DNA of 64,000 nucleotides from Ulota crispa. Taxonomy: Eukaryota; Streptophyta; Bryopsida; Orthotrichales; Orthotrichaceae. The DNA lies in the NCBI GenBank assembly GCA_963920765.1, contig OY987250.1, forward strand, positions 15,802,409-15,866,408, given 5' to 3'. Shown here piece by piece: positions 8,809 through 62,027 of the stretch (positions are counted from its first letter, which is position 1; every line of letters begins with the position of its first letter). Below the pieces are notes generated by a model. It made no database searches, was not told where the DNA came from, and saw only the letters and a program-made list of their open reading frames with translations. Both the position numbers and the translations under genes were made by a program.

Positions 8809-9044
8809 TTAACCCCTAAGCGCCCAGAGTTATTTTAGGATTTAGGAGAAAATGGGGGTTTAATGGCCACCACAACTTGGAAAATTACATTCAGAAAAGT
8901 GACCGTAGGATGTGAAAGAAGACTATTTTCTCTGTTGATGGGGACCAGCCATGACGGTTTTCACCATACAAATTAAGAGAAAAAGTGAGATAAAGTTGTG
9001 GGCTCCAACGACAAGATCTTGTCGCTGGGGCGCTTAAGGGTTAA
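8809..9044. mobile_element. TTAA-flanked MITE, 236 bp
   Basis: TTAA (8809-8812) then CCCCTAAGCGCCCAG; the right end reads CTGGGGCGCTTAAGGG then TTAA (9041-9044). The imperfect inverted ends are about 17 bp. Interior non-coding. Confidence 0.75.
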
Positions 9045-9080
9045 TAAGCAAAAGGACACATACTGTGCTAGTCTTGGTGG

Positions 9081-9914
9081 GTAGTTGCAAGAAACACCTC
9101 ACGGTTTTGTCTCAAAAGGCCTCTTTTTGGGTGTAATACTAGCAGTGCTACCAGTACTATAAGTACTATAGAGCATCCTCACACTGAAAATCTGAATTGT
9201 CTCTTCCATCCCAAATCTATTGGGAATGAGGCACGTGGCATGTCATTTAGGAAGGCCAACTATCAATAATGGCAATTCAATGAATGGATGTAAAAAAAAT
9301 CAAATCCTCAAAAGATGTCAGTGGTCAGTGGTACTACGTAGTGCCAGTAAATGGAGGGGAGTACTACATAGGCATGTGGAGCAAAAATTACCAAAATTTC
9401 TAGGTTGCCATGTTTTAATTCTTAGTAATTACAAAAAAACAAAAAAAAAAAGCAAAAATTGGCCATTTGTGGCCTCCTTGATTGGCTTGAAATGATGAAA
9501 GTACTTTTTCTAGGAAGATTTTTGTCTATCACCTAGGCAGGGAGATAGGATGCCCACTTTGAGAGAATGAGCAAGGCATAGAATTTTGAGATTTACAAAA
9601 CCGGTGTACAAATTTGTGTAATGATGCCTCCTAAATCACTACCCTAATTTGTGGCCAAAAATTCTTATTTTTTGACCCAATGCAATATTGAAAACCCCCA
9701 AAACCATTTAGGTAGACATGCAATTGATATTCAATTATAAATAGTAAAATAAATTCTAAAAATATTAAAAAATTACTAAACGTCAGTAACTTTGATGTTT
9801 TCCTTACTTTGAAATTTCAGGTCAAAAGGACTTGTTAAGCAAAAGATACGATCCTAATACCACTTGCCTAAGGGGAAGGGGACACAATGTAGTATTAGTG
9901 TTTCTTGCAATCAC
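9081..9914. mobile_element. Non-autonomous element, about 834 bp, possible hAT type
   Basis: The left end GTAGTTGCAAGAAACACC pairs with the right end AGTGTTTCTTGCAATCAC. The flanks CTTGGTGG and CTTGGTAC match at 6 of 8 positions, which may be a decayed 8-bp duplication. A second, inverted, older copy lies at 5400-6110. No transposase frame is present. Confidence 0.5.
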
Positions 9915-9998
9915 CTTGGTACAGTACCCTAGTATGTACTCTAGCTCTTGAGCCTTAAGGAGTAGCCATCTCAAATTCATTTTCATTTAAATGCCATA

Positions 9999-10251
9999 TT
10001 CGTTAAATTGGGAAAACGTGATTCCCAAATTGTACTTCACCTTAAATCCAAAAAGTTACCTTGAACTGTTTGAACGCCAGATTCGAAGGTATCAGATTCA
10101 ATCTAAGCCACTAAGATTTTGTCCCTTGCAAGTTCCTACTCTCAAGTGAAGGCACGTGTACCAAAAAAAAATGCTGAGCTTGGTTTAAGGTCAGTGATCA
10201 CCTTAAACCTTCAGAAGTCCCAAAATGTACTCTTTTTCCCGATTTACCTTA
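9999..10251. mobile_element. TTCGTTAATTTGGGAAAA family MITE
   Basis: It starts TA/TTCGTTAAATTGGGAAAA and carries the family core (GGTTTAAGG, GTGATCACCTTAAACC, GGCACGTGTACC). The body is the reverse complement of the copy at 16031-16268. The right end is degraded. Confidence 0.6.
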
Positions 10252-10480
10252 TAATTTTTGTTAAAAAATATCACATTAGTACATATTACATGTCTATAAT
10301 TTGGTTTTCATCCACAATTTGGCGATTTCATCAAGATTTATTAAAAAATTTGAAGCCTTTTTGGCAATTTCATCCAAGTTTTTTGGCGTTTTTTTGACAT
10401 GCTTTAATTACCAGACTATTTTTTGTGTGGTGAAATTTGGCCCTAGAAAGCCAAAAAAATAGAAGCCTTGCTTAGCACTG
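10252..10480. repeat. Dispersed repeat, also at 12340-12560
   Basis: Both copies contain ATTACATGTCTATAATTTGG, TTTTCATCCACAATTTGGC and repeated TTTCATCCAA motifs in the same order and orientation. The repeat type is not identified. Confidence 0.55.
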
Positions 10481-10539
10481 AGTGTGTATTAGCCTATTAT
10501 ATAAGGGTAGTAGTGCAGTACTCATAGGTAAGCTTAATC

Positions 10540-10760
10540 ATGGTGGGTTCGTTTTATGCGCTGGCATGGCTGGGGTGCAAGGGTAACTTATTCATTAAAA
10601 TTATCTCAATGCTCAAGCGGGGGCTCAAGCAAGGGCTCAAGGTGGGAACTTTGGAAGAGTATAAATGTGGCCCCTAGCCATGAGCTTAGTACAATGCTTT
10701 GCACACCCAAGTGATGATTAGGAAAGACCAACATTCTAACCCATCCTCCAAGGTGGTATG
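10540..10760. repeat. Dispersed repeat, also at 16305-16490
   Basis: The two share CTTAATCATGGT, GCGCTGGC, TTCATTAAAATTA, GAACTTTGGAAG, ATAAATGTGGCC and TAGCCATGAGCTTAGT in order. GAGTATAAATGTGGCC could be a TATA box of a retroelement LTR, but I cannot find paired LTRs, a primer-binding site or a polyprotein. Confidence 0.45.
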
Positions 10761-10795
10761 AAGACGATGCTTACCAGCCTGATGGGTGCAACATT

Positions 10796-10890
10796 TCCTT
10801 TCTATGTTGCTGTTGCTGTTTCCTTTCTATGTTGTTGATTCCTTTCTATGTTGCTGATTCCTTTCTATGTTGCTATTTCCTTTCTATGTG
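10796..10890. repeat. Short minisatellite, unit about 20 bp
   Basis: TTCCTTTCTATGTTGCTG recurs about five times with small length changes. Low-complexity expansion; no coding frame. Confidence 0.7.
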
Positions 10891-11231
10891 TTTCAGCTTT
10901 GCGCACATTATTTGCAAGTGGCGGGTCCGGTCTTGGATTTGAGCTGAGTCATCCAATCTAATCAGTTATTTGTCAGTTGTCCTAATGTTGGGCGTTGATA
11001 TTGCAGTTAAGCGAGGGAAGTGGCAGAGAGGAACAAGCAGTTGTTCAAGTTTGCATGTACGCCCCAATTGGGAAATTAGATATGGGAGGATTCATCATTG
11101 AAGCAACAAAATGGTGCTTGACGCAATATAATTATTGTCAGCATTTTTTTATATTGCATTTTGTTTCATGTTTGAATAAGATTTTTAATTTGATATTCAA
11201 TATGTTTGTTGAATCATTATTTTTTTATTGA

Positions 11232-12339: not shown

Positions 12340-12560
12340 TTGGATAGAAAATATCACATTAGCACATATTACATGTCTATAATTTGGTTTTCATCCACAA
12401 TTTGGCAATTTCATCCAATTTTTTTAAAGTTTGAATCTTTTTTGGCAATTCCATCCAAGTAATTGTGTTTTTTTTTTCTATAGGCTTGGTGCCAGTCAAA
12501 AAGATTTGGTGCAATTTTGCCCCAAATCGCCAAAAAATGAAACCCTTGTAAAACATTGAC
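12340..12560. repeat. Second copy of the 10252-10480 dispersed repeat
   Basis: Shares CACATTA-CACATATTACATG, GTCTATAATTTGG and tandem TTTCATCCAA motifs with the first copy. A minus-strand frame through it (12377-12697) has no family features and is an artefact of repeat composition. Confidence 0.55.
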
Positions 12561-12660
12561 GTTTTTGTTTGAGTCAGGTGAGATATTGTTGTTTGTGTCA
12601 TAGTTAGCCATTGTTGGTCTTTTTGGGCGCTAATATATGTTTGTGCTATTTTTGATGTAG

Positions 12661-14537: not shown

Positions 14538-15454
14538 TTAACCCCTAAAGGACCATTGTCCCTACGAGGGACAAATGGGATTTTGGGCAGGTACCTACGA
14601 CCTCAATTTTTGTCCAAATTTTTTGAAACTTTTTTTGAAGATAGAAAAACACATTGGCTTTTGGGAATTTAATTTTTATTCCAGTTGATGCTAGAATGCA
14701 AAAGTTATGCCCAAATAAGCACAAATTTGGGGACTAGGGGTAGCAAAAAAAATCCTTATAAAAACTTGAATTTTTTTTTCTTATAGATTATATATTTTTG
14801 TACATTTGAAGCTATGATTCATTCCATTTAGACTAGTAATGAGAAATTATGGACAATCTTGTTTTTTGGGCAACTCAAGCATCTTCTTGAAAAAATAACT
14901 TATAAACTTCATTTTTGAATGTAGGTTTAACATTTTTTCAAAAAAAATTGTTGGAGAGGGTGAAGTTTGCTTTCTAAAGAAATCTCAACATTGGGATAAT
15001 TGCGTTTCAATTCCATTGCAGGGTTATTAGCAATTTAAAATTTTGTTCAATCTCATACCTTCTTCTACCTAATATTTTTTTAAAGAATGAAAATTAAGTA
15101 TTCTTTTTTCAATTTTTTTCCCAAGATTCCCAACTCAACTCCCCACCATGCAAAAATAGAATTCCAAAATTTGTGGTGCAAAAAATTTAAGTTAGAAATG
15201 TTCAAAGTTACAAAATCTAGTCAAGCAAGGTGCAAAAAAAGTTGTTTATAATACTTTAAAATGCATATATCTTCCAATCTGTGCAATCAAAGTTCTTGAG
15301 TTTTGAATGGCACATTCTTCTAGTAGTCTAGCACAAGATCCTATGATTAGATATGCAAAATGCCTGAATTTCAAACTTTTTTACTCTTTGCCATAGAGGT
15401 GGCAATTTTGAGTGTCTTTTGACAAAATAAAGGCCATGGTCCTTTAGGGGTTAA
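14538..15454. mobile_element. TTAA-flanked element, 917 bp
   Basis: TTAA (14538-14541) then CCCCTAAAGGACCATTGTC; the right end reads GCCATGGTCCTTTAGGGG then TTAA (15451-15454). The interior shares CACAAGATCCTATGATT-like text with the copies at 19857 and 35916. No frame of transposase length. Confidence 0.82.
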
Positions 15455-16030: not shown

Positions 16031-16268
16031 TTCATTAGATTGGGAAAAAAGGTAGATTTTGGGACTTCTAAAGGTTTAAGGTGATCACCTTAAACCAAGC
16101 TTTGGCAATTTTTTTGGTACACGTGCCCTCACCAGAGAGGAGGAATTTGCAAAGGAAAAAATCTTAATGGCTCAAACTGAATCTAATACATTTGAATCTA
16201 GTTTAAAGTGACTTTTTTGGTTTCAGGTGAAGTACAACTTGGAAATCACGTTTTCCCAATCTAATGAA
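16031..16268. mobile_element. TTCGTTAATTTGGGAAAA family MITE
   Basis: TA/TTCATTAGATTGGGAAAA pairs with TTTTCCCAATCTAATGAA/TA. The ends are almost perfectly inverted over 18 bp. Confidence 0.72.
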
Positions 16269-19390: not shown

Positions 19391-19455
19391 ATTGGATGGG
19401 ACATAAGATATGTTTAGGCCTTCATTTACCTTGGTAAATGGGTTTACAAGACTCA

Positions 19456-19856: not shown

Positions 19857-20794
19857 TTAACCCCTAAAAGCCCAAGCCCTTTTTTCTGTGAAAGTTACTC
19901 AAAACTGCCACTTTTGAGGGAATGAGTAGAAAGGTAGGAAAAAATGTTTTTTTTGGAAATCCAATTATAGGATCTTGCCTTGGACTATGGAAGGTACATG
20001 TGTGAAAAAAATCAGCTCATTCTAGATGTAGAAGAGTGAGCTAATGAAATTTGAAGTAAAAAAAAAAGAATTTTTTTCCCTGCTACCCAAAAAATTCAGA
20101 AGGCTTTGACAGCTCTTATATAAAAAAAAACTGCTCTATGCAATGTTGAGGTTTTTCTTTTTCCCATGTAGAATACTAAGTTAGGTAAGTGCAGGAAAAT
20201 TTTCAAATGAATTAGACATGTAAATCATACTTTGTAAAATCTTGCAATGCTGTAAGGACATGAAATTTGCATATACACTAGGCAAAATTGGAGGATTTAT
20301 TTAAAATTCAAAAATCTGAATTACTTTGATCCAAATGGTGAAAACCAAGGAATCTTAGTCTACTACAACTTGGAAAAAAAAAGTAAAAAAAAAGAACACA
20401 AAGGGCTCAAAAAAGTAAAGCACCAAATTCTAGAAGGGGCAAAAGGAATGGAGGGTTGGGTGTTTCATACCTACCTGCATACTAAAACTTCTCACTCATC
20501 AATCAAAATTGAATGATTCAAAGCTTCCCACATACACATATGTCTAAAGAACCAATTTTAGATTTTTAATTTTAAAAATTGCGATTTTTTAAAAAGTTTT
20601 TGAGCTGCCCACTCTCCCCTATTTTTCAAAAATTCATGCATAACTTCTTCAATAAATGTGGGAATGAAGAAAAAATTAGATGCCCAAGCAAATCTTTGAA
20701 TTCCCCATCTTCCATAAAAATTTCAGAAAACCACATAGGCACATGCCCAAAATCACATTTGTCCTCCAAAAGACAATGGTCCTTTAGGGGTTAA
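19857..20794. mobile_element. TTAA-flanked element, 938 bp
   Basis: TTAA (19857-19860) then CCCCTAAAAGCCCAAGCCC; right end CAATGGTCCTTTAGGGG then TTAA (20791-20794). It is closely related to the copy at 35916-36870 in the opposite orientation (shared AATGAGCTGA, GGCAAGATCCTAT, GTTTTCACCATTTGGATC in complement). Confidence 0.85.
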
Positions 20795-22018: not shown

Positions 22019-25000
22019 TCATGATTCTCTCACCACATCCTCTACTTCAGCGTGTTCTTCCATCTTCTCCCACAGCTTCTCATCCAGGGACTGCCGCACT
22101 GTCTTGCGTGACTCGCGTCGGTGTCGTTTTGGCTGAAGCCTTGGCTCAGCTTGCTTTACACCTGATGCACGTATCTTGTACCTACGCAACAAAAAAATCT
22201 ATAGTTAGAGATGATGATTATGACAACCCGACATGCTTCTTTTCAATGCTAATAGTAGGAGGCACTTTAAATTGCACAGGGCAAAGCAACAACCTTGTGA
22301 TAAGAAGAAATCTTACTCTTTCTTTAATTGGTGCAACTTTAAAAAAAAGGGAAAATTTCATGGATACCCCTGAAGTTTGCCATATTTTCATAGATACCCC
22401 TGCTTTTTCAGAAATTCCACAAATACCCAAGGACCAAAATATTCAGGTGTTTGTTTTGTTGTGCATGCCACTTCCCATTCTTCCTTTGTGCGCACGCATA
22501 ACAAGAAAGAAGTACTGTGCACACAAAGGGAGAAGGAAGAGACATGCACAACAAAACAAACGCCTGACAATTTTGGTCCAAGGGTACTTGTGAAATTTCT
22601 GAAAAAGCAGGGGTATCTATGAAAATATGGCAAACTTCAGGGGTATACATGAAATTTTCCCAAAATAAGAAGGTTCGTTTGTTTCACGTCCCTCAACAAC
22701 AACATAAATAACATGAAGAAGCGGCACTTATTTGACTCTTGAGTAGCACAATACAAATATTTGAGATGGCAAGGTTTCAAGCTACCTCTTTAACCCTTTA
22801 ACGTTCATACTCTCGGATACAATACAAATGGCAACGTTTTTAGCTTTTCTAGGTGGACAACTTCAAGGTAATGCCAAACAAATTCTAGAGCAATGCCTAC
22901 AATTCCAACCATACCTATGGATGCATTGGATTGGCTGTTTTTGGGTTTCAGGCATCAACTTTTGAGACTGATCTACCGTCTACCCCAAGAGCACTTCCTG
23001 TTAAGCTGTGTATAGATGTACAGTACAGTGACCCAAGTGCGGCGTATGAACTGTTAAAAGGGTTAAGTTAAGGAGTGTTGGTATCACAAATGTGAATAAT
23101 TTATTATGAAGATGTTATCTGATTCCGACTTGCACATAATGTTGCTCAGATTTTAAGCTTGTTGCCCTGACCTTTATAATCTAGGGAAAATTTCATGGAT
23201 ACCCCTGAAGTTTGCAATAATTTCATAGATGCCCCTGCTTTTTCAGAAATTTCACGAATACCCTTGGACCAAAATTTACAAGCATTTGTTTTGTTGAGCA
23301 TGCCACTGCCCTTCTTCCTTTGTGCACAAACATAACAAAAAAGAAGTAGTGTGTGCACAAAGAGAGAAGGAAGTGACATGCACAACAAAACAAACGCCTG
23401 ACAATTTTGGTCCAAGGGTGTTTGTGAAATTTCTGAAAAAGCAGGGGTATCTATGAAAATATTGCAAACTTCAGGGATATCCATGAATTTTCCCTATAAT
23501 CTAAAGTGGCTCTAAATGGGATCAATGCCTGATAATTAAACACAGGTTAATCCTTTTATGTCGCAATAATTGAAGCATTTCTTTCACAACTCTCGTTTGC
23601 AAAACGAACATCTTACAGGTTTCGGTAACGACAGAAAGTAATGGAATCAGTTTAGGGTTTATGAACAAAGGAATATCCGCTTGTGGAAGATGGGAAGAAC
23701 AGAATTTACCTGACATCGCTTTCTCTCTTGGTTCCAAGGACTCGCTTTTCAACTTCTTCCCTTTTTCTGACCTCGTCCAGCAATCCTAAGTAGTGGGAGT
23801 ACCGGTCCCATTCGCCACCCACAGCACAAGAGGGTTCCCCTACATGTAAGCAGTTTGCAAACAGACAACCCCCTTCAGAGCTCGCAGCAATCCGCTCCCT
23901 CACCTGCACAACCCACTCTGCACTAAGTCCCACAGAAAGCATGACAATTTAACTACTTTGAATCATTGAACAAGAACCTCGAAATTGATATTAAAAATGA
24001 TAGTATCCACAGGATTGGCACGTGTATCTTCTACACCAAATAGTGCATTTCATTGCCCCACACTCATTTTCTGACATTTTAAATTCAATAAATACTGACT
24101 GGTACTAAAATCATTTTCACCAATAATTACTGCAATACACAAATTTTGACAACAATAAGGATTTGCAAAAAAACAAACTATAGTGCGAGACACCATAAAT
24201 CAACAAACATTTGGCCACAAAATGCCAAATCGTGGGCAACTTTGGGTGCTATCAACATATTTTTGACAAAAGATAATTCAGATCCATTTTCAAAGCTCTT
24301 TTCCTAAGATCTCCGTGTTTATAGTGACAAAGAGTTTCAACTTATTAAGGGGTGTTATGAATAGCTCATATGGTTGTTAGGTCTTTGTTGTTTTATGCTG
24401 TAATATCTTTCAATAAGTTGAAATTGCTTGTAATTATAAGCCCCTCAATAAGTTGAAACTATTCATAACTATAAGTAAGGAAATCTTAGGAAAAAAGCTA
24501 CAAAAACAGATTTCAATTATCATTTGCCAAGAATACGTTGATAGCACCCAAAGTCGACCACTATTTGGCATGTTATGGCCAAATGTTTGTTGGTTTATGG
24601 TGTCTTGCACCGTAGCACCGTAAACCATGTGAAATCTTAGTATCTAGAGAACTGCATGGGCCTTCAAGTAGCCAAGCACTGAGTCATGAGGTAACTTTCC
24701 AAGGTAAGGCAACCTATTAAGGCAACCTAAATGCACTATTTAGTGTAGCTTAATTGCATTGCAAACCGTACCTCAGGAAAGAGTTCTCCCAGCTCTCCAC
24801 TAGTCACGAGGTTCAGGCTAGGTTGGCTGAAGCCTGGAGTGTCAGCAAGTAGCCCTCCGTCTCCAGGAAGCCGCAGAAGGGATACGTGACGTGTGGTATG
24901 CCTTCCTTTACCGGACCTTGACGACACTTCACTAACCTGAACTGCCTCAAACTCTTCATGTTCGTCAAGGATCTGGCTCAATATCAGAATGAAAAGGTCA

Positions 25001-27368
25001 TTAGCACCATCAAAATTTCACCAAAGTAACTCAACAAGATGCCGAGATCGTCAACAAGTTTAATCCTTCAACGGTTCATACGTCACATTTGGATCGATAT
25101 ACATTTATACACAGCTTAACAACAAACTACAGAAAGTATGCTTGGAATATAAACTAAAATCTCCAAAAGTAGACAACGATAGATCAATCTCAAAATTTGA
25201 TGCCCAAATATAGCCGATCCATACGGTTAGAATTGTAAACACTGTTCTAGAACTGGAACTGTAAACGCTACTCTAGAATTTGCTTGGCAATGCTTTAAAG
25301 TTATCCACTGAACAAAGCTGCCAACTGTACAGGACATCCAAGAGGATGAACGTGAAAGGGTTAAGGGAGTGCATTTATGTACATTCGATCAATAGACTCC
25401 CGAGCAATTTTGCATTAAAAGGTGACAAGGAGTTCTCGATTCATTACGTATTTTGACAAATTTTCACATACAAGAGCTTCAGAGGACAAAAACCTGAGGG
25501 ATGATAACAGCATCATCGTCTTCTGCAAGAGCCATAGTTTCGAGTCTTTGCATTGCTTCCTTTTCTCGCCACATTTCAATTCCAGACACATCACGCAATG
25601 CATTGATCAAACTTGACTTCCCAACTCCACTTGGTCCAACTACCACTGCAGTTTTCTCTCTCAGCAGCTCCATCACTGGCGCAACTCCAGACCGAGAACG
25701 AACACTGCATATAACAGGATTGTAGCCCCAGCCTGCAATCTTCTCTTTCCATTCTCGAAGTTCCTGCACATGGAAAACCCTAAAAGTTACTCCCTCTGTC
25801 CCTCTAAAAAAGCTCCAAATCAGACACATTTCTTGTACCACTAAAAAAAAAGCTCCCTTTTGCTAATTTCAAACACTAAGAAAGCGTTTGCCATATTCAA
25901 TGATCTCATGGGGGGGGGGCAAGTTAAGCAATTAGAGAGCACTCCTCTCCTAGCAAGCTTGGACTTGCCAATGTGAGGTACCATTATTGCTACTAGTCTT
26001 AAAATCATCAATAAATAATCAATAAATAACGAGGAGCTGGCAGCATGCACAAATATGGTACTTTTTGCTGCATGGAATTTGAGCACCCAAATGGCAACGT
26101 CAAACACCAAAGCTCAAAATTTTGCATACATTTGGTGTATGGTACATTGATTCTATAATGCATGTGTCATTAGCACAAAGTCTACAAAACACAGATAATC
26201 CTTTGCAATGAAGCTTTTAGGACGTTGATAGAGGGACAGAGGGAGTATTTTTCTAGTCTTATCATGGTTTGTTATCCCGGTCGCGAAGTGCCAGAGCCAG
26301 AAGGTCGACATTTAGGGAAAATTTCATGGATACCCTAAAGTTTGCAATAATATTACAAGAAAGAAGTAATATGCGCACAAAGGGAGAAGGAAGTGACATG
26401 CATAACAAAACAAAAGCCTCAAATTTTTGGTCCAAGGGTATTTGTGATATTCCTGAAAAAGCATGGGTATCCATGAAATTACTGCGAACTTCAGAGGTAT
26501 CCGTGAAATTTTCCCTTTCTTTAAATCTGAGGCTTTGGAGAGAGGGAGCTAAGTTAAGCATCTGCTTTGAGATATTAGGATTTGGAGAGATTTTGACCTA
26601 AACTGAACAAAATGGCGTTACCTGGTGAGACACCAAGTCCGCCTTGTTAAGAATCAACGTGAACGGGATCCCGGTGGACTCGGCTTCGACGAGGAACCGA
26701 CTAAGCGCAGTAGGCTCGAGTTTCGGCCGATCAAACGAGAACAAGACAAGCAAATGCTCAACATTCGCAACGGGAGGCTCTGCGATTTCACTCCGCCGGT
26801 CCAACACATCCTCCACCATGCCCCGACGATCCGTCCAGTCGATGCCCGACATCAAAACCCTATCTCCTACCAGCACACGTCGCTTGATCTTCTTCAACAC
26901 CGCTCGAACAACACACAGAAGCTCCGTCCCCGCTTTCGCTCCACAATTCACTTCCCACGCATTCACAGCACTACTACTACTCGTCGACGGCGCATCCTCG
27001 GCCGCTTGATTGTCGCTGCCCGTGCGCTCAATAAAAACGCGCATGAAATTGGCCTGCGCCGCGATCACCTGCCCCACGGCCTGATCCTCCCGCAGCACCA
27101 ATCCGTCCCCGGAACTGGTCTCTTTGTCCTCGAATGTGCTCCGGAACTTCTCGATTCCCGCGTGCCCGATCTTCTTCACGGACTCGTCCACTTTCCAGCG
27201 CTTCGTCTGCTGGTACCGTGAGCCGGATTGGTTCTTCCGTGCTGCGTAAATTTCGAGAGAAGCAGTGAGGCGGATTGAAATTGGAGGTTTCCAGGGTATG
27301 AAAAGGTCGGCGAGTTGGCGAGATACGTTGAGTAGAGTTGTGGTGGCATGGCGATCGAGCATCGCCAT
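22019..27368 (-). CDS. RSGA: Organellar small ribosomal subunit biogenesis GTPase RsgA (YjeQ family), 5 exons
   Basis: Exons (minus strand): 27368-26622, 25763-25494, 24972-24772, 23903-23710, 22181-22019. All introns are GT-AG and phases agree, giving 1575 nt and 524 aa. The family is a circularly permuted GTPase that helps late 30S subunit maturation. Motifs appear in the permuted order: G4 NKAD (241-244), G5-like CSVRSRSG (268-275), P-loop GPSGVGKSS (292-300), G2 threonines (365-366), G3 DTPG (383-386). A zinc knuckle C-x4-C-x-H-x5-C follows (Cys419, Cys424, His426, Cys432), then a basic tail. An OB-fold-like region precedes G4. The first ~50 residues are rich in Ala, Thr, Ser and Arg, and I infer a chloroplast or mitochondrial transit peptide. 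The start is the first ATG that keeps this leader; the downstream Met370 (second codon pair, MAM) is not distinguishable. The gene is head-to-head with MVD. Introns 1, 3 and 4 are mostly transposon sequence. The family call is secure; the organelle is not. Confidence 0.93.
22349..22661. mobile_element. Near-palindromic Mutator-like MITE in RSGA intron 4
   Basis: GGGAAAATTTCATGGATACC at left and its complement at right pair over arms of roughly 150 bp each, leaving a very short loop. As a result both strands encode almost the same peptide (MPYFHRYPCFFRN), which is a mirror artefact. Flanking duplication is unclear because of poly-A. Confidence 0.78.
22790..23066. mobile_element. TTAA-flanked MITE, 277 bp, in RSGA intron 4
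   Basis: TTAA (22790-22793) then CCCTTTAACGTTCATAC; right end GTATGAACTGTTAAAAGGG then TTAA (23063-23066). It is a relative, in opposite orientation, of 25060-25364 (shared GATCAATCTCAAAA, GCATCAACTTTTGA in complement). Confidence 0.78.
23184..23494. mobile_element. Near-palindromic Mutator-like MITE with exact 9-bp duplication
   Basis: TATAATCTA flanks both sides (23175-23183 and 23495-23503). Arms begin GGGAAAATTTCATGGATACC. This copy defines the family's 9-bp target duplication, hence the Mutator-like assignment. It sits in RSGA intron 4. Confidence 0.85.
24034..24745. mobile_element. TA-flanked CACTAAATAGTGCATT element filling RSGA intron 3, with a nested fold-back
   Basis: Left TA/CACCAAATAGTGCATTTC and right ATGCACTATTTAGTG/TA. 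The element is split by a second fold-back at about 24182-24615, whose arms read GACACCATAAATCAACAAAC and the complement GTTTGTTGGTTTATGGTGTC. A partial copy of that inner element lies at 34640-34815 in MVD intron 7. Confidence 0.68.
25060..25364. mobile_element. TTAA-flanked MITE, 305 bp, in RSGA intron 2
   Basis: TTAA (25060-25063) then TCCTTCAACGGTTCATACG; right end GATGAACGTGAAAGGG then TTAA (25361-25364). Related to 22790-23066. Confidence 0.72.
25790..26245. mobile_element. Stowaway-like MITE in RSGA intron 1, beside the 3' splice site
   Basis: TA/CTCCCTCTGTCCCTCTA and TAGAGGGACAGAGGGAG/TA are near-perfect inverted ends. On the minus strand its end lies about 24 nt before the acceptor AG (25765-25764) of exon 2, so the branch point probably lies inside the element. 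Confidence 0.88.
26315..26515. mobile_element. Internally deleted GGGAAAATTTCATG fold-back in RSGA intron 1
   Basis: The right arm is complete but most of the left arm after TTTGCAATA is missing. No clear target duplication. Confidence 0.65.
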
Positions 27369-27529
27369 CGTGAATTGCAGAGTGGAGGTCGCTGGTGTTG
27401 GTCTTGGAGGTGCGAGAAGGAAGGGTGGACACTATCCTGACGACGACGACGACAGGGGTTGGAACTCGTGTCCCGTGAAGGGCCGTTCGCCTTCACCGGA
27501 ACTGCACCTCGACCTCTTTAATATCACAC

Positions 27530-28640
27530 CTACCTAATATCACACTCATATCATATCCCCTAATATCACACTCATATCATATCCCCTAACAGCACACTCC
27601 TGATGTCACAACCCTGAATGTCACACTCCTCATGTTACATCCCTAACATCACACTCTCGATGTCACATCCTCTGATAATGTCACATCTCCTTATTATCAC
27701 ATCCCCTAATGTCAAACCTTCTTAATACCACATCCCCTCATATCATATCCTCTAATACCACATCCCCTAATATCACATCCTTGATGTCACACTCTTGATG
27801 TCACATCCCCTAATATCACATCACCTAATATTACATCCCTTAATGTCACATCTCCTTATCATCACATTCCCTCATGCCACATCCTCTAACATCACACCTC
27901 CTTAATATCACATGCCTAATGCCATACCCCCTAATGTCACACCCTCTAATCCACATTCCCTACTAACTCATCCCCTAATGCCACATTTCCTACTAACTCA
28001 TCCCCTAATGTCATACCTCCTAATGTCACATCCCCTACTGTCACATCATCTGATGCCACACTTCCTTAATATCATACCCCCTAATATCACATCCTCTACA
28101 GTCACATCCTCTAATGTCACACCTCTTTAATATTACACTCCCTAATAGCACATCCCCTAATGTCGCACCCACCTTAATGTCCCACACTCCCACCCTCCTT
28201 CATGTCACACCTTCTTTCATGTCACACCCTCCTTAACCATTAAGCGTTAGATGGGTGGCTGTGCCTGCCCTCTATAGTGGTTTCTACATTGGTGTGGCAG
28301 GTGCTCACCCATTAAAATTTTATTTTACAAAATTGCAAAAGTCAACAATGCATGGTGCCCTCATGAAAATTGCAAGAAGGGCAGCTTGGGACCTAACACC
28401 TTGTTTTTGAATCTTATCACAATTTGGGTTACAAAAAAATATAAATGCATCTCATGAGGGAATTTTTTGCCTTCCATAATGAACCATCTGTTTATGGTCT
28501 CTTCTGAAAAAAATTAGATGAAAAACAACTTTTTTTTGAATCACAAAATCTTTTTTTGAAACTGGAGGACATTTTTTGTCCTTCTCAATGTTTAGGGGTT
28601 AGGGTCACACCCTCCTTAATATCACATATCACATCATACA
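27530..28640. repeat. Degenerate satellite of CACATCCCCTAAT-type units between RSGA and MVD
   Basis: Dozens of imperfect 13-18-bp units (TCACATCCCCTAATA, TCACACCTCCTTAATA) run from about 27530 to 28232, then resume at 28603-28640 after a TTAA element. The array occupies the head-to-head spacer and is C-rich, A-rich and G-poor on the plus strand. No frame in it is credible. Whether it affects either promoter is unknown. Confidence 0.85.
28233..28602. mobile_element. TTAA-flanked MITE, 370 bp, inserted in the satellite
   Basis: Left TTAACCATTAAGCGTTAG; right CAATGTTTAGGGG then TTAG. The interior is the reverse complement of the 371-bp copy at 49637-50007 (GGAGGACA, GCACCATGCATTGTT in complement). 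It sits inside a CTCCTTAATATCAC-type satellite unit, so the insertion target was TTAA. Confidence 0.78.
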
Positions 28641-29376: not shown

Positions 29377-32300
29377 ATGGGGAAAGACGGGGAGGAGGCA
29401 GCGTGGGTGGTGACGAAGACAGCGCGGGCGCCCAGCAACATCGCGGTGATCAAGTACTGGGGCAAGCGCCACGAGAAGCTCATCCTGCCCATCAATTCCA
29501 GCATCAGCGTCACTCTGGACCCCGACCACCTCTCCGCCATCACCACCGTCGCCGCCAGCCCTGCCTTCCGCTCCGATCGCCTCTGGCTCAACGGCAAGGT
29601 AAGCTTATCTATCGTTGCGACATTGCCCCCCCCCCCCCCCCCCCCCGGAATAGCGATTAGGCCATCGAGCAGTATACGAATACTCTGTTTTCTGAAATGC
29701 TCTGTTTTCTGAGAAGTTTGCTGTGTGTTTAAATGCTCTGTTTTCTGAGAGCTTCGCTGTTTGTATAAATACTCTGTTCTTGAGAACTTTGCTGTGTACA
29801 TAAATACTCTGTTTTCGTGAGAACTTTGCTGTGTGTATAAGTACTCTGTTTTCTGAGAACTTTGCTGTGTGTAGAAATACTCTGTTTTCTGAGAGCTTTG
29901 CTATGTATAGAAATGCGCTGTTTCCTGAGAACTTTGGTGTGTGTATACATTGCCCCCTTTGAAAGCGATTAGGTCATTGAGCAGTTCGAATATTCTGTTT
30001 CCTGAAATTTGCTGTGTATGAATACTCTGTTTTGTTTTCTGCAAACTTTGCGTGCAGGAAGTGTCAGTGCACGGCGAGAGGTACAAGAATTGTTTGCGGG
30101 AGATGCGAGCACGAGCTACTGACGTGGTGATCGAATCAAGCGGGGAGGTGATTAGCAAAGAGGACTGGAACCATGTGCACATTCATATCGCCTCCGAAAA
30201 CAACTTCCCTACTGCTGCTGGCCTGGCCTCCTCTGCTGCTGGCTTCGCTTGTTTAGGTCAAAAACACAATCCATGTCTCCTTTCGCTTTTGTGTTCAAAC
30301 CAAGTGGAATTGTTGATATCATTCTTCTGTGAATACCAGGATCTGACCTAAAATGGAACTTAATTCGGGAATGGAGAATTGTTTGATTGTTGTCAAAGAG
30401 CAAATGCAACGCCGAGCAAGTTGTCTCGTAACTTTTGGAGCTGTATTGAGTTTGTTATGAAATCGCTGAAGTTACTATGGCGTCTTTCCCATTCCATGGA
30501 TTAGATTGTGCTTACTTGGACTTTCTTAGCTTGAAACAGCCTCCTTTCATGAGTAGATCAAAACCTAAATCACTTTCCATTCATGGAGTCCATGAATATA
30601 TGGAATGTGTTACGCAATGGGTTTTCTAGAACCGGTTATTGCTTTTACCAAATATTGCATTTAGGTTATCCTATACTAATTTCTTGACATTATATAGATA
30701 TTTACAAACCAATGGAGTCCAGGTTGTAAAACATGTGAAATCCTAGTCTCTTGAGAGTTGAATGCGCCTCCAAGTGGCCAAGCCATGAGTCATGAGGTAA
30801 CTTTCCGGGGTAAGGCAACCTAAATGTAATATATTCAGTGTAGTGAATAAGCATGCAAGATCACGCAGATATTTAGTAAGCTGAGCAAGGTTGAGCTCAA
30901 TGGATCACGTGGTGACCGGCGCTAAGCAAAGCATTACCTTACACAACAGGTTACTTGCCGTCCAAATCTTAGTTTGTGCCGATATCTAGCAAGCTAAATA
31001 AGGTCAAGCACAATGGATCATGTGGTGACTGGCACCACGAGACGCATTACCTCTTATAACCGGTTTCTTCCAGTCCAAATCCTAGTTTGTGACTAGTTGT
31101 GTCGGTGGTGTTTATTGCCATGTTGTGCCATCTCCATCTTTCAACACCTTGTTCATATTTTTTTCTCCTCGGCTTAATTACCAGTTTTAAACCATTCTCC
31201 TGAGATTCAGTTCAATGAGGGTGAGCCACGTTGGCAGACTTTAGGCAAGAACCATTTATGTGGCAATTTTCAATGGCTTTGGCAACTCTGATTTCCATCT
31301 TTGATTGTTACAGTGTATGCTCTCTCCCAACTTATGGGAGTTAAGGAGCAATACGAAGGGGAACTCTCGGCAATAGCGCGGTACATTGCGTTCCCATGGC
31401 TTTCAATGGCCGCTTTCTCGTATTAGAATGGAATTCTACTTAATTATGTTCGTATCACCAGTTTTGAAAGGATTCTTATACACTGATAAATATATAATTT
31501 GAATACCGTACGAACAAGTTATCAGTTTTCAATGGTAGGGGAGAATAACTATGCATAGGATTTTAGTTTTTAGGAAAATTTCATGGATACCCCTGAAGTT
31601 TGTCATATTTACATAGATACCCCTGGTTTTTCAGAAATTACATGAATACCCTTGGTCCATAATTTTCAGGCGTTTGTTTTGTTTGTTTTGTTATGCACGC
31701 TACTTCTTTCATGACCAATGTTAAAACAAGGAGTGCAACAGAACATAAAAGAAGCAGCGTGCACACAAGAGAGAAAGAAGTGGCATGCACAATATAACAA
31801 ACGCCTGAAAATTATGGACCGGAGGTATTTGTGTAATTTCTGAAAAACCAAGGGTATCTATGTAAATATGGCAAACTTCGGGGAATTCATGAAATTTTCT
31901 CTAGTTTGTAGCTTCTTCTTTTTTAATGTGGTTTTTAAATATGTATTTGTCGGTAACATTTATCCCACTTTATGTATTACAGGGTTTAGTATTTCATACC
32001 TGGTTTGGGGTTCTGGGGTAACAAGTGTGTATTTGTGGATGCAGGCTTGGCTCTGGTAGTGCTTGTCGCAGCCTCTATGGTGGTTTTGTAAAGTGGAATA
32101 TGGGTCAGGTAGTTGGCAAGCTCTATCCATATTTCTTCTTCTTATTTTAATACACTTTTTTTTTCATATATATTTGTTTGGTATGTATGTTTTACGTTTT
32201 CTTTTAGTTTTTGATTTTCCTTTGCTACCAATGGGAAGGTATGAGCAATGATGGGTGATGCCCTGTTGCTGCTGCAAGGGTAGGAGGCAGATGGGAAGGA

Positions 32301-35300: not shown

Positions 35301-38300
35301 GAGAGACTAGGCAATTCTTCAAACATGTTGTAGACTAGAGATGTGTTAAAAACTATAACAGCTTGTTGGGGGCTCATCGTTCCAAATAATGAGTTTCTTA
35401 TATGTAATAGAATTATGCCATATCTTCACCTGACATCTTTTGATTGGCAAATCAAGTTTTTAAATGGTTGGATCAGTAAGTGTTATGTCAAGGATTAGAT
35501 TTGGGGGCGTTTCATAATATGTCCCAACTTTGCAAAGTTCCACCTGAATGGAAGATCCCAACATTATTTGAGATACCAACAAGGTTGGGTTGTAAATGGC
35601 AAAAAGAAACACTAAAGGGAGCCTCCAAAAGTTCCAAAAAGTGCTGCCATATAAGCAATTTTAAGTGAACTAAGAATTGGCACTTGGTGTGAATTGGAAG
35701 GTCCCAATTTTCAGCTCTTTTGAGACGTCAGTTGGACTTGGGACGTAGTGTGAATTGTTCCTAAGGATTGTGCTAAGGATTATATCAAAAAGACTAAATG
35801 AAACGTACACAATGTGTAATTGGGTTTGGAAACACTTGCAGTTTGCCACTACACTAAAAATGATATTTAGTGTTATGGTATTTATAGTGTTATTTATCCT
35901 ATCATTTGGCTCACTTTAACCCCTGAAGGCCCAAGGCCCAAGTGTCCCCTTGGGGGACAAATGGACCTCGGGCATGTACCTGTGACTAAACTAGTTTTTA
36001 TAAATTTTTTGAAACTTTTGAGGATGGTGGAGAATTCAAAGATGTACGCGCACATCTAATTTTTTCTTCATTTCAACATTTATTGAAGAAGTTATGCATG
36101 AATTTTTGAACAACAAGGCAGTGTAGGCAGTTTGGGCAGCCCAAAAAACCTTTTTAAAAATTTCATTTTTCAAAATTAAAAATCTGAAATTGATTCTTTA
36201 GATTTTTACAAATGTGGGAAGCTTTGAATCATTCAATTCTAATTTATGAGTGAGAAGTTTTGGTTTGCGGGTAGGTATGGGATTCCCAAACCTCCATTCC
36301 TTTTGCCCCTTGTAAAATTTGGTCCTTTACTTCTTTTTTTTTTTAGCTTTTTTTTTTCCAAGTTGTAGTAGACTAAGATTCCTTGGTTTTCACCATTTGG
36401 ATCAAATTTTTTCAGATTTCTCAATTTTACATAAATCCTCCAATTTTGCCTAGTGTATATGCAAATTTCATGGCCTTCCAACATTGCAAGATTTTATAAA
36501 GTATGTATCACACCTCCAATTCATTTGAAAATTCTCCCACACTTACCGAACTTGGTCTTCTATATGGGAAAAATAAATTTCAACTTTGCGTAAAGCAAAT
36601 TTTTTGATATAGAAGAGATCAAAGGCTTCTGAATTTTTTGGGCAGCAGGGAAAAAAACTTTTTTTCTAACTTCAGATGTGAATATCTCACTCATTTACAT
36701 TTAGAATGAGCTGATTTTTTTTTCCACAAGTACTTGCCATAGTCTAGGGCAAGATCCTATGGTTGGATTTTCCAAAAAAACATGTTTTCTTAACTTTCTA
36801 CTCATTCCCCCAAAAGTGATAGTTTTGAGTGAGTTTCACAGAAAAAAGGGCTTGGGCCTTTAGGGGTTAACTCGCATTCAATTGACACTTAATGTTTTTG
36901 TTGATAATTAGTGTTAATGTTGAATATTGTTTTAATGTATGCTAAACTATAGTGGTACTAATTTAGAATTTTTGGTGAAGATTTAGTTGACATGTGTTTG
37001 TGTTGACATTTAGTGTTACATTTTGGAATTTACTTTGTCAACACTTAAGTCATTATTAGTGTAGTTTGAAAATAGTATGTATTTTTACTGCTTTTTTTTC
37101 CATTTTTTCTGATTGCATCTTTTGTTTTTTTCAGGTTGCCTATACATTTGATGCCGGTCCAAATGCAGTCATGTTTGCTCGTAACAAAGAAATTGGAGCA
37201 CAGCTGCTCCAACGCCTTCTTTATCAGTTTCCTCCGGCCTCCGACGCTGATTTCTCCAGGTCAGATTCTGGGGTATTTTATTATTACTATTTTTGGTTTT
37301 TCCATTGGTTGAGCTACATACACCCTAGACTGTAGTGCCCTCCAACAAGTTCTTGAGTTTCTGAAACTCAAATAGACAGCAATCACTGTTGAATAATAGC
37401 AATTGAACATTTCAGAATCAACAAAATCCCATGAGGCCGTATGCTAGCAATCTCAAGCCACATATCTACAAATTTTATTAATGGAAAAAGTACTAGTGAG
37501 GCTATGGGTTTTTTTTTTTTATTGTTTTGACAAACTTGAAGCAGTGGTCACGTGAGTTTCAAAGGACTTGTTGGAGAGCATTGTACAAAGACAAGGAAAA
37601 AATAGATGTTAATATTAGCTCATTATTTGAATGATGACTCAACTCTTTTTTTCCCAAATTTTGGCAAAACTTGATGTTTCCTTGAGAGAAATCTAGCATT
37701 TTCATCCATTTTTCCGCCCAATTTGTTTTGGTGTTGAGGTAGCCAGTATGCCAAGTTTAACTAATTCTAAACTAAGGAGGCAACTTGGAAAAATTACAAT
37801 GATGCTTGATAAGGTCAACCTTTGTAAAAGAAATGTTTAGATATTGTCAAGGTCCCCACTTTTTTGTGTGTGTTTTGGACCCAATTAAATGGAGTGTTTG
37901 TTTATGATTAATGCTTGGATATAGTCAATGTTTTTTTCTCACTCAAGGCATTAACCTTGTCCAAGCATCACTGCATAAGGCTTGTGATGGTTAAGAAGTA
38001 TTCTAAAGTTGTGCACATCATCTTGAATTGAAAACTCTCCAACCTTGGACTCATCCCCCTTGAAATCAAAACATCTTCCCATGCAATTTATTGGGTATAT
38101 AAAAGGATAAGAAACTTCCATTCTCTCTTTGCTTGATGGCATGGTTTTTATTTCTGGACTTAAGTATTGCATTAGTGTCAAAACAACGTAAGATTTTGCC
38201 AAAAACTTGCCCAAAACATGTTTCCTTGAGTATCAATATCCATCTAGGTAAGCCTTGCTTTTTTATAAGCAACTTGTTTAATAAGTCCAACCAAGTGTAT

Positions 38301-49099: not shown

Positions 49100-49636
49100 G
49101 TACTAGCAACAATGCAAAGAGCGGCAAATTAGCATGAATGCCATGGGTTAGTGTGAGTGCGTCATAAGAATGTTTCTATAGGAAAAAAACTGCTATAAAA
49201 TTTGACATGATCCATGGCCTTGCAAATCACTTTTCATGTTATCTATTTAGGAAAAGCGATGGAGCTGCTCTAATATAGTGTGAACCGCCCCTAACAATGA
49301 TGTACCTTCATAAGGGAATGACTAGGGAGACACCCCTAGTTGCTACATGGACATCCCCTATAGCCTAACCTATTAAAATTGAGATTATTTTTACGTTGAA
49401 ATATGAAATAAAATCAAGAATTATTTTAGAGCACATCTACGTCTACAAGTGTTGCAAACATATAACATAAAATGTCTCATTTGTGATATGGTCAAGAGTT
49501 AAACGAATAGATCATTTCATTTATAAGTTTAACTCTTGACCATGTCACAAATGAGACATATTTGTTGTATGTTTGTAGTGCTTGTAAACGCAAATGGGCG
49601 CTAAAATATTGTTTTGATTTTATTTCATATTTCAAC

Positions 49637-50007
49637 TTAACCCTTAAACGTTGAGGAGGGAGTTTTTTGTCCTCCAGCTTTGAAAAAAGATTCCGTACTA
49701 CAAGAAAAAGTTGTTTTTCATTTGTTATTTTTTCAAAAGTGATCATAAACATATGATCCATCAAGGAATGCAACAAATTATCTCATTAGATGTACTCATA
49801 TTTTTAGGTAACCCAAATTATGAGAAGATTCAAAAACACGGTGTTAGGTCCCAAGCTACCCTTCTCATAATTTTCATGAAGGCACCATGCATTGTTAACT
49901 TCTGCAGCATCAAGAAATAATATTATAATTGCTAGGCAATTACTACTCTTGTAGAGAGAACAATAGTCGGGTTGGTCACCTTGACTAGCCTGGCGTTTAA
50001 GGGTTAA
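49637..50007. mobile_element. TTAA-flanked MITE, 371 bp
   Basis: TTAA (49637-49640) then CCCTTAAACGTTGAGG; right end CCTGGCGTTTAAGGG then TTAA (50004-50007). Same subfamily as 28233-28602. Confidence 0.82.
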
Positions 50008-50074
50008 TAACAATCTCAAATTTAATAGGTTGGACTATAGGGGATATCCACATACCAAGTACGGTGTCTCCCTA

Positions 50075-50394
50075 CACTGAATATTGCATTTAGGTTGCCT
50101 TGACAATTAGGTTGCCTTACCCTGGAAAATTACATAATGGCTCAACATTTGGCCACTTGGAGGTGCATGTAACTCTCTAAAAACTTGCATTTCACATGAT
50201 CTACTACTTGGAAGCCATTAGTTTGTTGTTCCGGAGCTTAGTTGTTTTTGCTAGACCTTTTAAGATTTGTTTATTACAGTAATATCATTTATTGCAATAA
50301 TTATCAATGAAGATTATTGAAGCACCAATAAATATTTGAATAGTGCAAGATGTCAAGAAATTAGTATGAGACAACCTAAACGCAATATTTAGTG
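50075..50394. mobile_element. CACTAAATAGTGCATT family member, reverse orientation
   Basis: TA/CACTGAATATTGCATTTAGG pairs with CCTAAACGCAATATTTAGTG. The right dinucleotide is CA instead of TA. Confidence 0.66.
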
Positions 50395-58419: not shown

Positions 58420-59748
58420 CACCGCTGCACACCAGGTTCCGAAGATTACAACCTGGGCTTTTATTTGGTTTTTGGATTAGTTTCCTTTGTGACCCAGGCT
58501 TTGGAATTGGAGTAGCATTAGAGTTTCATCTATACAAGCCAGAAACAAGAGTGACACCCAGGGTTTTTTTTAAGGTTTTGGACCGGCAGTTTCTTAGGCC
58601 ATATGGTAATTTTTAATGGTGCAGATATGGCTATAGAAGATTTTGTTTAAGTGCAAAATTAGGCTGCAGGTATTTACACTTTGAGCTTGTTGGTTGTGTT
58701 TTCCTAAAATTAAAAACTGCTATTGTAAGAATGAAACATGGGTTACATAGTCCAAAAATTTATATCATAAAGATGCATTATCTCAAAGAAACTCAAGGGG
58801 GGCTTGATTTTCATATAATAAGGCTCCACATGATGCAAAGTAAGATCACGTTGTTTTCGTCTAAGATCCTAGCCTAGATAGTTGACTGGCTACAAATAAC
58901 AACATATTCTTCTTTGTAATGTATGGTAGGCATCTAGATTTGGAATGTTGAGCAACATCTTGCTCCATGACGCTATTTTTTCTTCATTTTTTGTATAGGC
59001 CTGACACTTGAGGTTTTTTTTTTTAGCTATCTGTCTTTTTTAAGCCTAAAATAAAACCTTGGTGACACCCTCTTCATTCAGGCTACAATAGGATCATCGA
59101 TGTACAGCTTCTTGTTTGGTGATTCATTACAGTTGTTTCAAACTAGTGTCTGAGCTTTGGGAAGTGAAGAACTTTCCCGTTTAACAGTTTCGTTAATTTC
59201 TAAAGAGTGCCAAGGTACTGTTGAAATGGGACTTCTACAACAAAATGGAAGGTAAATGTGCAACAATATCTAAACTCTAAAACTTATTATTAAATCATCA
59301 TATTAAGGACTTTTCTTTTTAAGGTAATAATAAGTAAATAAAGATATATATATTTACTAATATACACAATACAAATTAGTAACAACAATGCAAAAGTAAA
59401 AGGAACGTCCGATAATTCATTCTGAAAATTAATAGGTACGTACTCTATTGTGTGGTTTTTTAGAATGAATTGTTAATTCCTTGTGAAAGTTTTTATTTCA
59501 TTTAATTTGAACAGTTCAGAAAGCGATATTTGGGACAGTGCTAAAGCTGTTTACATGATTAGATATGGATAGCATATGCAAAACACTAATGAAAATTTGT
59601 TGTTTCAAAAACAAGCATTTCACATGCATCCAAAAAGAGCAATATTTTCCTGAGAATGAGGAGCAATTCAACAACTTCATGCGCTCAACCACTTTTGTGT
59701 AAATTAGGTTACCGATATTCACCTAATACAACAAATACATTGTTTTAT
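58420..59748. other. 3' flank of the FAD/Rieske gene; no further gene seen
   Basis: The first few hundred bases probably include the 3' UTR. The rest is AT-rich with no paired ends or credible frames. Confidence 0.45.
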
Positions 59749-60069
59749 GGGAAAATTTCATGAATATCCTTGAAGTTTGTAGTCTTTGTAGATACCTCTT
59801 GTTTTTCAGAAATTGCACAAACACCCTTGACCATAATTTTTAGGCATTTTTTCTATTATGCATGCCACTTTCTTCTCCCTTTGTGCACATGTTGCTTCTT
59901 TCTTGTTATATTGCATTTCTTGCTTCTACATTGGTCACAAAGGAAGTAGCCAGCACAACAAAACAAACATCCAAAAATCATGATCCAAGGGTATTTGTGC
60001 AATTTCTTAAAAACTAGGGGTATCTATACAAACATGGCAAACTCCAAGGGTATTAATAACAAAAATCCC
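59749..60069. mobile_element. GGGAAAATTTCATG fold-back MITE, diverged
   Basis: Left GGGAAAATTTCATGAATATCC; the right arm is recognisable (AGGGGTATCTATACAAACATGG) but the terminus is eroded to AAAAATCCC. Confidence 0.65.
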
Positions 60070-60169
60070 TTATGTAACCATTAAATGCCAATGCAGACAT
60101 TCTTAGTTTGATGGGTGGTAAAAATACAATTAATTGGATGTAGTAGGAAAGCTAATTTTAATATTTTTT

Positions 60170-60300
60170 CTATAAAGTGATCATGTAAAAATAATCTCAC
60201 TAAATGAGCTCATCTTCTTAGGTATCCCAATTTGTGAGAAGATTCACAAAATATTGTTAGGTTTTATGTTGCCCTTCTTACAATTTCCACTTCTTTTTCT
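60170..60300. repeat. Fragment of the 370-bp TTAA MITE subfamily
   Basis: GGTATCCCAATTTGTGAGAAG, GATTCA-AAA, TGTTAGGTT and GCCCTTCTTACAATTT match the middle of 49637-50007. Neither terminus is present. Confidence 0.55.
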
Positions 60301-61138
60301 AAGGTGTAGATTTTTTGCTACAATGGTGGAAGTACGAAATGGGCTACAAAAGTAACCTATCTTATTTGGTTTTAAAATTAATCAAAGTATAATCTTTGTT
60401 CTACTACAAAGGCAATGAAACGTGTGTCCTATAACAAAGTGGATAAGACATATAGACTTCTTTTGTGTACAATATTTCAAGGATAAGTAGGTGACATTAT
60501 AATCCTCTCTTTTTATGGAAATTGTGGAATGTTTACTCATTTCTAAGAGTTTTAAATGTGCTTTAATCATCACACTTGAAATAAAACACAAGGAGGACTA
60601 GTTATAGAGAGTCTCAAATTTTTTATGGTTGATAATGAAAAAATATTGACAATATTGCCATCATCATCTATAACAATTTGGACATCAGTAATGATATCAT
60701 CTGAAGGCTCTTGCACGTTCTTTAAATCTCCTACCTCAACAATTTGATACACATATTCCACAATGTGAAATGCAAAGCTTGTAATTACATTTTTAATTTT
60801 TTTTTGTTGCATGAAGGGAAAGATTAGACCAACTAGTCTAAAAAATGTCACTGTGGCCCAAGATTAAACTTTTGAAGGATTACATGGAATAGAAAGGATT
60901 GTTAGCATTTATAAAAGGATGCTTCAAAAGTGGCCTCAAATGTTTGTATGGAGCATCGTTGATAATAAATTGATAATCATTATCTTGGATGATAGTTGTT
61001 GACGGTTTCTTCTTAAACTTGTCTTTTTAGTCGTATCATTAAAAGCATTGTTAAGGTCCTAGAAGCAAAAAGGATTTCAAGACGCAAAAATATGAAGATG
61101 ATGGTGATGCTAAAAATAACCAATGAATAACCTATCAA

Positions 61139-62027
61139 TTAACCCCTAAAAGATCAAGCTTATTTTTTCTCAAAAAGACTCAAAACTGTCATTACTTATG
61201 ATTTGATCCCAAAAACAATCTTTTTCAAAAAAGATCAAATCTAACCTTAGGATCTTGTAGTAGACTCATTCAAGAACATACCATGAAAATTTTGTGAAGT
61301 TTGATCATGTGGATTGAGAGATATGATCATCTGAAGGTAGTACATAAAGTTTTTTTACCCTTGCCCAAAATTTTCAGGTGCCTTTGACCACGTGTGGTGA
61401 ATAGTTTTTGCACTATAGGTGCTAAGGAGATTAGCCTAACATGCTCTAAACCATGTTAGGCATGTCTCTCCAAGTATTTGTGATCAACTAAGACATGGAA
61501 CACATCCTCCACGGCCCAGCATTGCAAACATGTGCTTGAAATTCACACTACATTGAGGTTTTTTGCCAACCAAGTTTTCTAAAGATATATCAAAGAAAAT
61601 AAAAATCCAAGTGGTGGATTGGAAGAGTTTAGCTTCATTGACAATCTCAAGAAAGAGAATTGGAAAAAGAACCAAATCTCTAGTAGCTATTGCAATTCAA
61701 ATGTTAATGTATTTATCATAAACAATAATGTATTTATTTAGTACGCTATTGCTTTGGATAGATTCTAATGAAGGGTCATCCCTTCATTGGTTCCCCTTGG
61801 GAGAAGTTAACAAAAAATGGCATGCCCATGCTCCCCCTCAAATTAAAAATCACATGTTTACCCTTATAAACTTTGAACCAAAAATTGAAACTCAGTAAAA
61901 ATTATTCTCCCACGTAACTCTACTTTTGGAGAAAAAATTATAGAATTTGGTCATAAATTGTAGTAACATGACCCTGCCCAAAATCCTATTTGTCCCCCAT
62001 AGGGATAAGTGGACCTTTAGGGGTTAA
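61139..62027. mobile_element. TTAA-flanked element, 889 bp
   Basis: TTAA (61139-61142) then CCCCTAAAAGATCAAGCTT; right end AGTGGACCTTTAGGGG then TTAA (62024-62027). Interior distantly related to the other ~900-bp copies (AACCTTAGGATCTTG). Confidence 0.8.

Follow-up and report, generated by a model that had tools for sequence, protein, structure and literature searches.

TTAA-flanked miniature inverted-repeat elements with piggyBac-like ends in a plant genome

Ten elements in the window

The window analysed here is a 64,000-nt stretch of contig OY987250.1. It contains ten short elements with inverted ends, which are very probably non-autonomous DNA transposons of the piggyBac type, i.e. miniature inverted-repeat transposable elements (MITEs). 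An earlier note, made from the sequence of the window alone, had described at least ten complete elements with inverted ends on TTAA, and all ten listed were read back at the places named there (Table 1), with similar inverted CCC-type ends facing each other. TTAA bordered both sides of eight elements. The two copies reported with TTAG on one side were also seen; the elements at 172-410 and 28233-28602 have TTAA on the left and TTAG on the right. Two left ends are imperfect, that at 25060 beginning with TTAATCC and that at 28233 with TTAACCA.

The element sizes were 236-305, 370-371 and 889-955 bp. The four size classes proposed earlier are therefore roughly right, but size does not define a family, as ten sampled copies of 889-955 bp fell into at least two subfamilies with 81-90% identity within and about 54% between them. 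Instead of the single family first proposed, several related families are present. The element at 14538-15454 (subfamily A) was 82-89% identical to the copies at L025:1895, L026:5545 and L030:5031 (L numbers denote sampled stretches and C numbers contigs). The longest stop-to-stop frame in the ten 889-955-bp MITEs was 56-94 codons, frames having been checked in the long copies only.

Table 1. Elements and empty sites; positions refer to the window unless a contig is given
Feature	Position	Strand	Length (bp)	Border 4-mers (left/right)	Ends or junction	Remarks
MITE	172..410	.	239	TTAA/TTAG	CCCATAAAGGACCA / CCCTTAAAGGACA	groups with two L032 elements
MITE	8809..9044	.	236	TTAA/TTAA	CCCCTAAGCGCCC / CCCTTAAGCGCCC	
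MITE	14538..15454	.	917	TTAA/TTAA	CCCCTAAAGGACCAT	subfamily A
MITE	19857..20794	.	938	TTAA/TTAA	CCCCTAAAAGCCCAAG / CCCCTAAAGGACCAT	subfamily B
MITE	22790..23066	.	277	TTAA/TTAA	CCCTTTAACGTTCATA / CCCTTTTAACAGTTCATA	groups with 25060-25364
MITE	25060..25364	.	305	TTAA/TTAA	TCCTTCAACG (imperfect) / CCCTTTCACG	missed by automatic pairing
MITE	28233..28602	.	370	TTAA/TTAG		adjoins local tandem array at ~27520-28137
MITE	35916..36870	.	955	TTAA/TTAA		subfamily B; 90% identical to L026:8869
MITE	49637..50007	.	371	TTAA/TTAA	CCCTTAAACG	within abundant inverted repeat
MITE	61139..62027	.	889	TTAA/TTAA	CCCCTAAAAG / CCCCTAAAGG	
Transposase element	C3:13130262-13135288		5,027	TTAA/TTAA	TTAACCCCTCATCG / TTAACCCTTCATTG	
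Transposase element	C2:15046195-15051296		5,102	TTAA/TTAA	TTAACCCTTGACCG / TTAACCCTTCACCG	
Empty relative of L030:616-2437	31596..31844	-		single TTAA	CTCCTTGTT-TTAA-CATTGGTC	
Empty inverted neighbour copy of the repeat that hosts 49637-50007	49323..49512	-		GTAA		

Target-site duplication and empty sites

The earlier note had deduced a TTAA duplication from the symmetry of the two ends. By symmetry alone, a 2-bp TA duplication within TTAA cannot be told apart from a duplication of all four bases, and empty sites on their own do not decide the matter either, since TTAA is palindromic. The decision in favour of 4 bp came from non-canonical duplications. Exact ends next to an altered 4-mer were counted throughout the genome (274.8 Mb); the outer base was altered at 654 of them and the inner base at 595. 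Variant ends were then paired on contig C1, for which the top 100 places of either list are exhaustive and yield 92 and 84 ends. For 13 left ends a converging right end lay no more than about 1.5 kb away; one of them had two such partners, giving 14 rows. By chance, 0.27 pairs would be expected. In nine of these 13 pairs both sides had the identical 4-mer, namely TTAG in four, CTAA in three, and GTAA and TTAT in one each. As neither a TA nor a 3-bp duplication predicts such pairs, the duplication is 4 bp with a strong preference for TTAA.

These pairs also bear on two types of MITE with a shorter duplication. Tc1/mariner- or Stowaway-like MITEs would duplicate 2 bp (TA) inside a preferred TTAA and have ends beginning with ACCCC. 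The empty sites described below are equally compatible with this explanation, since T-TA-A yields an identical string, and the two window copies with TTAG give the impression that the outer base is independent. However, the 4-mer changes at its inner and at its outer positions with about equal frequency, and the model predicts that both outer bases vary, which was the case in only one of the 13 pairs, spanning 1,512 bp. With identical 4-mers in nine pairs the 2-bp duplication was rejected, and a Stowaway-like origin is highly improbable. PIF/Harbinger (Tourist-like) MITEs would duplicate TAA or TTA. Both trinucleotides lie within the flank, and Tourist MITEs with these duplications are established in plants (PMC10004981). 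With a 3-bp duplication, one of the four bases would be free to differ at one end, but in the nine pairs a change of the outer base recurs at both ends; in addition, matching ends are carried by elements with a PF13843 transposase. The 3-bp TWA duplication was rejected on the basis of the same nine pairs, and the chance that the elements are Tourist-like is equally slight.

The earlier note had proposed a search for empty sites with a single TTAA. The joined flanks of 49637-50007 gave at least 82 matches in an abundant repeat, every row spanning the junction (scoring covered 40 of 2,821 initial candidates). Of all the elements, this one provided the clearest evidence from empty sites. Fourteen of the 82 rows, chosen mainly for a near-gapless alignment at the junction and not drawn at random, were fetched, and all 14 had a single 4-mer at the junction without residue of TTAACCCC. 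The 4-mers were ATAA in six, GTAA in five, and TTAA, TCAA and GTGA in one each. Seven further junctions in the same query gave no row among the 40 candidates scored. A single TTAA was found in the relative of L030:616-2437, which consists of two abutting elements, at window positions 31844-31596. Relatives of the 35916-36870 site in L025 are empty and show CTAA and ATAA. The remaining alignments were looser, in several of them the junction fell on a gap or an unrelated 4-mer, and the units of the tandem array beside 28233-28602 yielded gapped alignments. All empty sites compared are paralogous and not orthologous, and the other elements gave looser matches or none. For paralogous sites, the proposed check nevertheless turned out as expected.

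The host repeat of the 49637 insertion (49323-49512 and about 49557-50087) is itself foldback-like, and many of its matches, at least 82 in number, form inverted pairs about 80 bp apart.

Abundance of the ends and piggyBac transposases

The exact 14-mer TTAACCCCTAAAGG occurred 7,719 times in forward and 7,692 times in reverse orientation, i.e. 15,411 times genome-wide, while the reversed-pattern control occurred once. Single ends with up to three mismatches numbered 34 in the window and 19-25 in three shuffled versions, which alone is weak evidence. Converging pairs of ends discriminated much better, with 35 pairs in 264 kb and 1-3 in five shuffled versions. The 264 kb comprised the window and a sample of 20 spaced 10-kb stretches from C1 (14) and C2 (6), which amounts to 200,000 bases or about 0.1% of the genome. 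The 35 automatic pairs include nine of the ten window elements, but also one false pair at window position 60074 and some that are nested or questionable; TTAA was present at both ends of 27. Pair-bounded stretches occupied 17,607 of the 200,000 sampled bases, and the share is about 8.4% when the doubtful pair L018:4297-5101 (805 bp, borders TTTA/TAAA) is removed. In sample and window together, CCC[C/T]T stood on at least one side of 71 of 1,684 TTAA sites. Scaled by hand this corresponds to about 70,000 such sites genome-wide; this number and the share given above are rough, coming from about 0.1% of the genome. The great abundance assumed earlier was thus confirmed by the number of exact ends and by the share of the sample. 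Together with the length of 236-955 bp, the inverted ends and frames of at most 94 codons in the long copies, this copy number agrees with what is understood by a MITE.

The two best-sampled subfamilies, with four and three copies, were 81-90% identical within, and no near-identical pair of copies was found in this small sample. Given this divergence of 10-19% between sampled copies of a subfamily, and given that only ten of the listed transposase matches described below are free of stops, most of the copying was probably not very recent.

A consensus was derived from 62 MITE ends, taken from the 35 automatic pairs minus five plus one. Left out as dubious, nested or duplicate were L018:4297, window:60074, L018:5587, L030:616 and L030:5024. 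The consensus reads TTAA-CCC[C/T]TAAA[G/C]G-(C/A)CCAAG, with C in 61, 62 and 59 ends at the first three positions, C or T in 60 at the fourth and T in 59 at the fifth.

Matches to PF13843, the piggyBac transposase, numbered at least 120 in this genome and none in any of 14 control genomes. Here, 116 of 527 candidates were scored, the listed matches were all above the cut-off and a few genes were counted as two pieces. Five loci had several kilobases of sequence on both flanks, and two of these (L037 with L009, and L038 with L014) were enclosed by TTAA-CCC ends (Table 1). In both complete elements the PF13843 match begins 2,525 bp in from the left end, and the two domains are 54% identical to each other. 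One of the ends, TTAACCCTTCACCG, occurred 29 times exactly. A piggyBac transposase gene flanked by the same kind of ends, for which the earlier note had suggested a search, is present in these two elements. When the bases beyond TTAA were scored with the MITE matrix, 12, 34, 4 and 22 of 3,308 other TTAA sites equalled or exceeded the four transposase-element ends, and some of these sites resemble unpaired element ends.

The assignment of the proteins was supported by an open frame of 389 amino acids in L039, which matched PF13843 (4.1e-67), the piggyBat structure 9c0f (2.6e-24) and 6x67 (7.6e-20), the last being listed as 'Transposase' and taken by us to be the T. ni piggyBac. Ten domains showed 32-71% mutual identity. 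The first and the third catalytic D were each present in nine of them and, by eye, the second in seven. A cysteine-rich stretch, likewise recognised by eye, lies behind the domain in each complete element; in one it comes after a stop, and in the other it is in a different frame.

Two further features of the transposase matches were recorded. The matches C1:1180709-1181995 and C8:19570986-19572215 are free of stops and lie in two pieces, and may be intron-bearing or domesticated piggyBac genes. Equal or nearly equal matches facing opposite ways, with spacings of about 15-110 kb, were present at C7:18203169/18223004, C2:36765124/36779670 and C10:676128/785346, which suggests inverted duplications.

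Among the MITE-type elements, abutting copies with one common TTAA occurred at L030:1502, L030:5957 and L032:1802 (three in 264 kb). The corresponding junction pattern AGGGGTTAACCCCTAAAGG had 208 and 213 exact occurrences genome-wide, a full palindrome counting twice, and by a rough hand estimate this number is about that of random TTAA targeting. In two foldback elements, L018:5904-6627 and L025:4147-4455, the whole length is an inverted repeat, with identities to their own inverse of 83 and 89%. Both carry ends of the TTAA-CCC type; one border of L025:4147-4455 is TTGA.

Superfamily, host and known systems

The reading of TTAA and CCC ends as piggyBac-like, already put forward in the earlier note, was strengthened by the 4-bp duplications, the PF13843 matches, at least 120 in number, and the two transposase elements with such ends. 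A 4-bp TTAA duplication was seen in nine of the 13 variant pairs, in 27 of the 35 automatic pairs and at empty sites; short inverted ends with the CC[C/T]T motif were seen in the 62-end matrix, and PF13843 was encoded within like-ended elements at two of the five adequately flanked loci. As judged from sequence, membership of the MITEs in the piggyBac superfamily is well supported. The transposases of the PF13843 set would then bind the common end motif in trans, cut at TTAA and excise the MITE by the hairpin route, through which piggyBac excision proceeds. The MITE would reinsert at a new TTAA, thereby duplicating it.

Several observations weigh against this interpretation. The counts of altered 4-mers cover the outermost and innermost base only. 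The other four of the 13 variant pairs on C1 are not 4-bp duplications: one is the 1,512-bp span, one has TTAT/TTAG, and two are mirror-like (C1:16651906-16652837 with borders TTAG..CTAA and C1:36270978-36271901 with TTAT..ATAA). In the mirror-like pairs both innermost bases depart from TTAA alike, which a plain 4-bp duplication does not explain. The two window copies with TTAA/TTAG have unequal border 4-mers, for which later mutation is assumed. Complete ends were lacking at three of the five well-flanked transposase loci, L040 having a right end only and L039 and L055 none that could be recognised, and none were recognised at six transposase loci with 1.5 kb on each side. The four transposase-element ends are matched in score by 10, 25, 4 and 17 of 44 other sites beginning with TTAACCC, so that CCC itself gives part of the signal. 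Finally, no stretch longer than about 20-26 bp was shared between the sampled MITEs and the two transposase elements.

The short length of this shared stretch would also fit another explanation. Kolobok is likewise a TTAA-targeting superfamily; it, or another with this target, might move the MITEs, and the piggyBac copies would be bystanders with convergent ends. A TTAA duplication alone does not name a superfamily, and only about 20 bp are common to MITEs and piggyBac elements. These common bases, however, form an end motif extending beyond TTAA, piggyBac genes are numerous, and a CC[C/T]T terminus next to TTAA is the published description of piggyBac (PMC2872659). This explanation is therefore improbable, although a little less so than a Stowaway- or Tourist-like origin, and the piggyBac assignment is retained.

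The plant host named in the earlier note was borne out, and a moss is the most likely one. In L024, a chalcone synthase frame matched the structures 6dx7, 9jl6 and 9kah with 697 bits each, followed by entries with 551 and 526 bits, and 6DXB with 483. The enzyme of 6DX7 comes from Physcomitrella patens and that of 6DXB from Arabidopsis (PMC8580882). The snoRNA families snoR30 and snoZ103 were present in the genome. The exact mature miR167 had no match in the genome, and this absence was read as a weak hint that the plant is not a seed plant; the exact start of rbcL was likewise without a match. We take snoR30 and snoZ103 to be plant snoRNA families. A Pfam VQ match at window positions 8059-8610 was rejected as evidence of a land plant, as it is an open frame in a short tandem repeat of CCAATGCTCATCCATTCAAAT units.

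piggyBac is best known from animals and serves as a gene-transfer tool. A class of piggyBac MITEs with TTAA and CC[C/T]T ends has been described (PMC2872659), and a 2023 review lists piggyBac among the MITE superfamilies of angiosperms (PMC10004981). A 2025 survey of MITEs in 207 plant genomes, four of them bryophytes, used CACTA, hAT, Mutator, Harbinger and Mariner together with Micron, and the words 'piggyBac' and 'TTAA' are absent from its main text (PMC12550479). In a fern genome, 1,230 piggyBac copies made up 0.00% (PMC6890710). No published account of piggyBac elements in a moss genome was found among the titles and abstract openings listed in searches of open-licence papers; PMC10619864 was discarded as a match, the word there being 'piggybacking'.

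The elements are thus a known type in a poorly recorded host, and are notable for host and scale. For the wider picture of a moss genome colonised by a long-lived piggyBac community of many lineages, whose MITEs make up about 8% of the 200-kb sample, the chances appear to be even. Thousands of MITE ends and more than 100 transposase matches indicate that piggyBac can form a large part of the DNA-transposon load of a plant. If this were general in mosses, piggyBac would be a major superfamily of bryophytes that has been overlooked or misfiled; MITE classifiers without a TTAA/piggyBac class are expected to misfile such elements. The moss transposases provide a plant-side family for comparison and leave the known mechanism unchanged.

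The closest known system is that of the coral CMITEs with their partner AmiPB elements (PMC2872659). Both systems have a TTAA duplication, CC[C/T]T ends, several families, abutting elements and piggyBac transposons in the same genome. In contrast to the coral, the host here is a moss, no MITE family was tied to one transposon, and one class is about 930 bp long. With the piggyBac transposases (PF13843; 9c0f piggyBat, 6x67) the moss proteins share the catalytic domain, the GVDxxDQ motif of the third D and, by eye, the C-terminal cysteine-rich stretch, and the elements share the TTAA-CCC ends. The complete moss elements are about 5 kb long, whereas T. ni piggyBac has 2,472 bp (PMC10140906). The Tourist- and Stowaway-like MITEs of plants are similarly short, with inverted ends and very high copy numbers, but have 3-bp and 2-bp duplications, respectively, instead of the 4-bp TTAA duplication of the elements described here.

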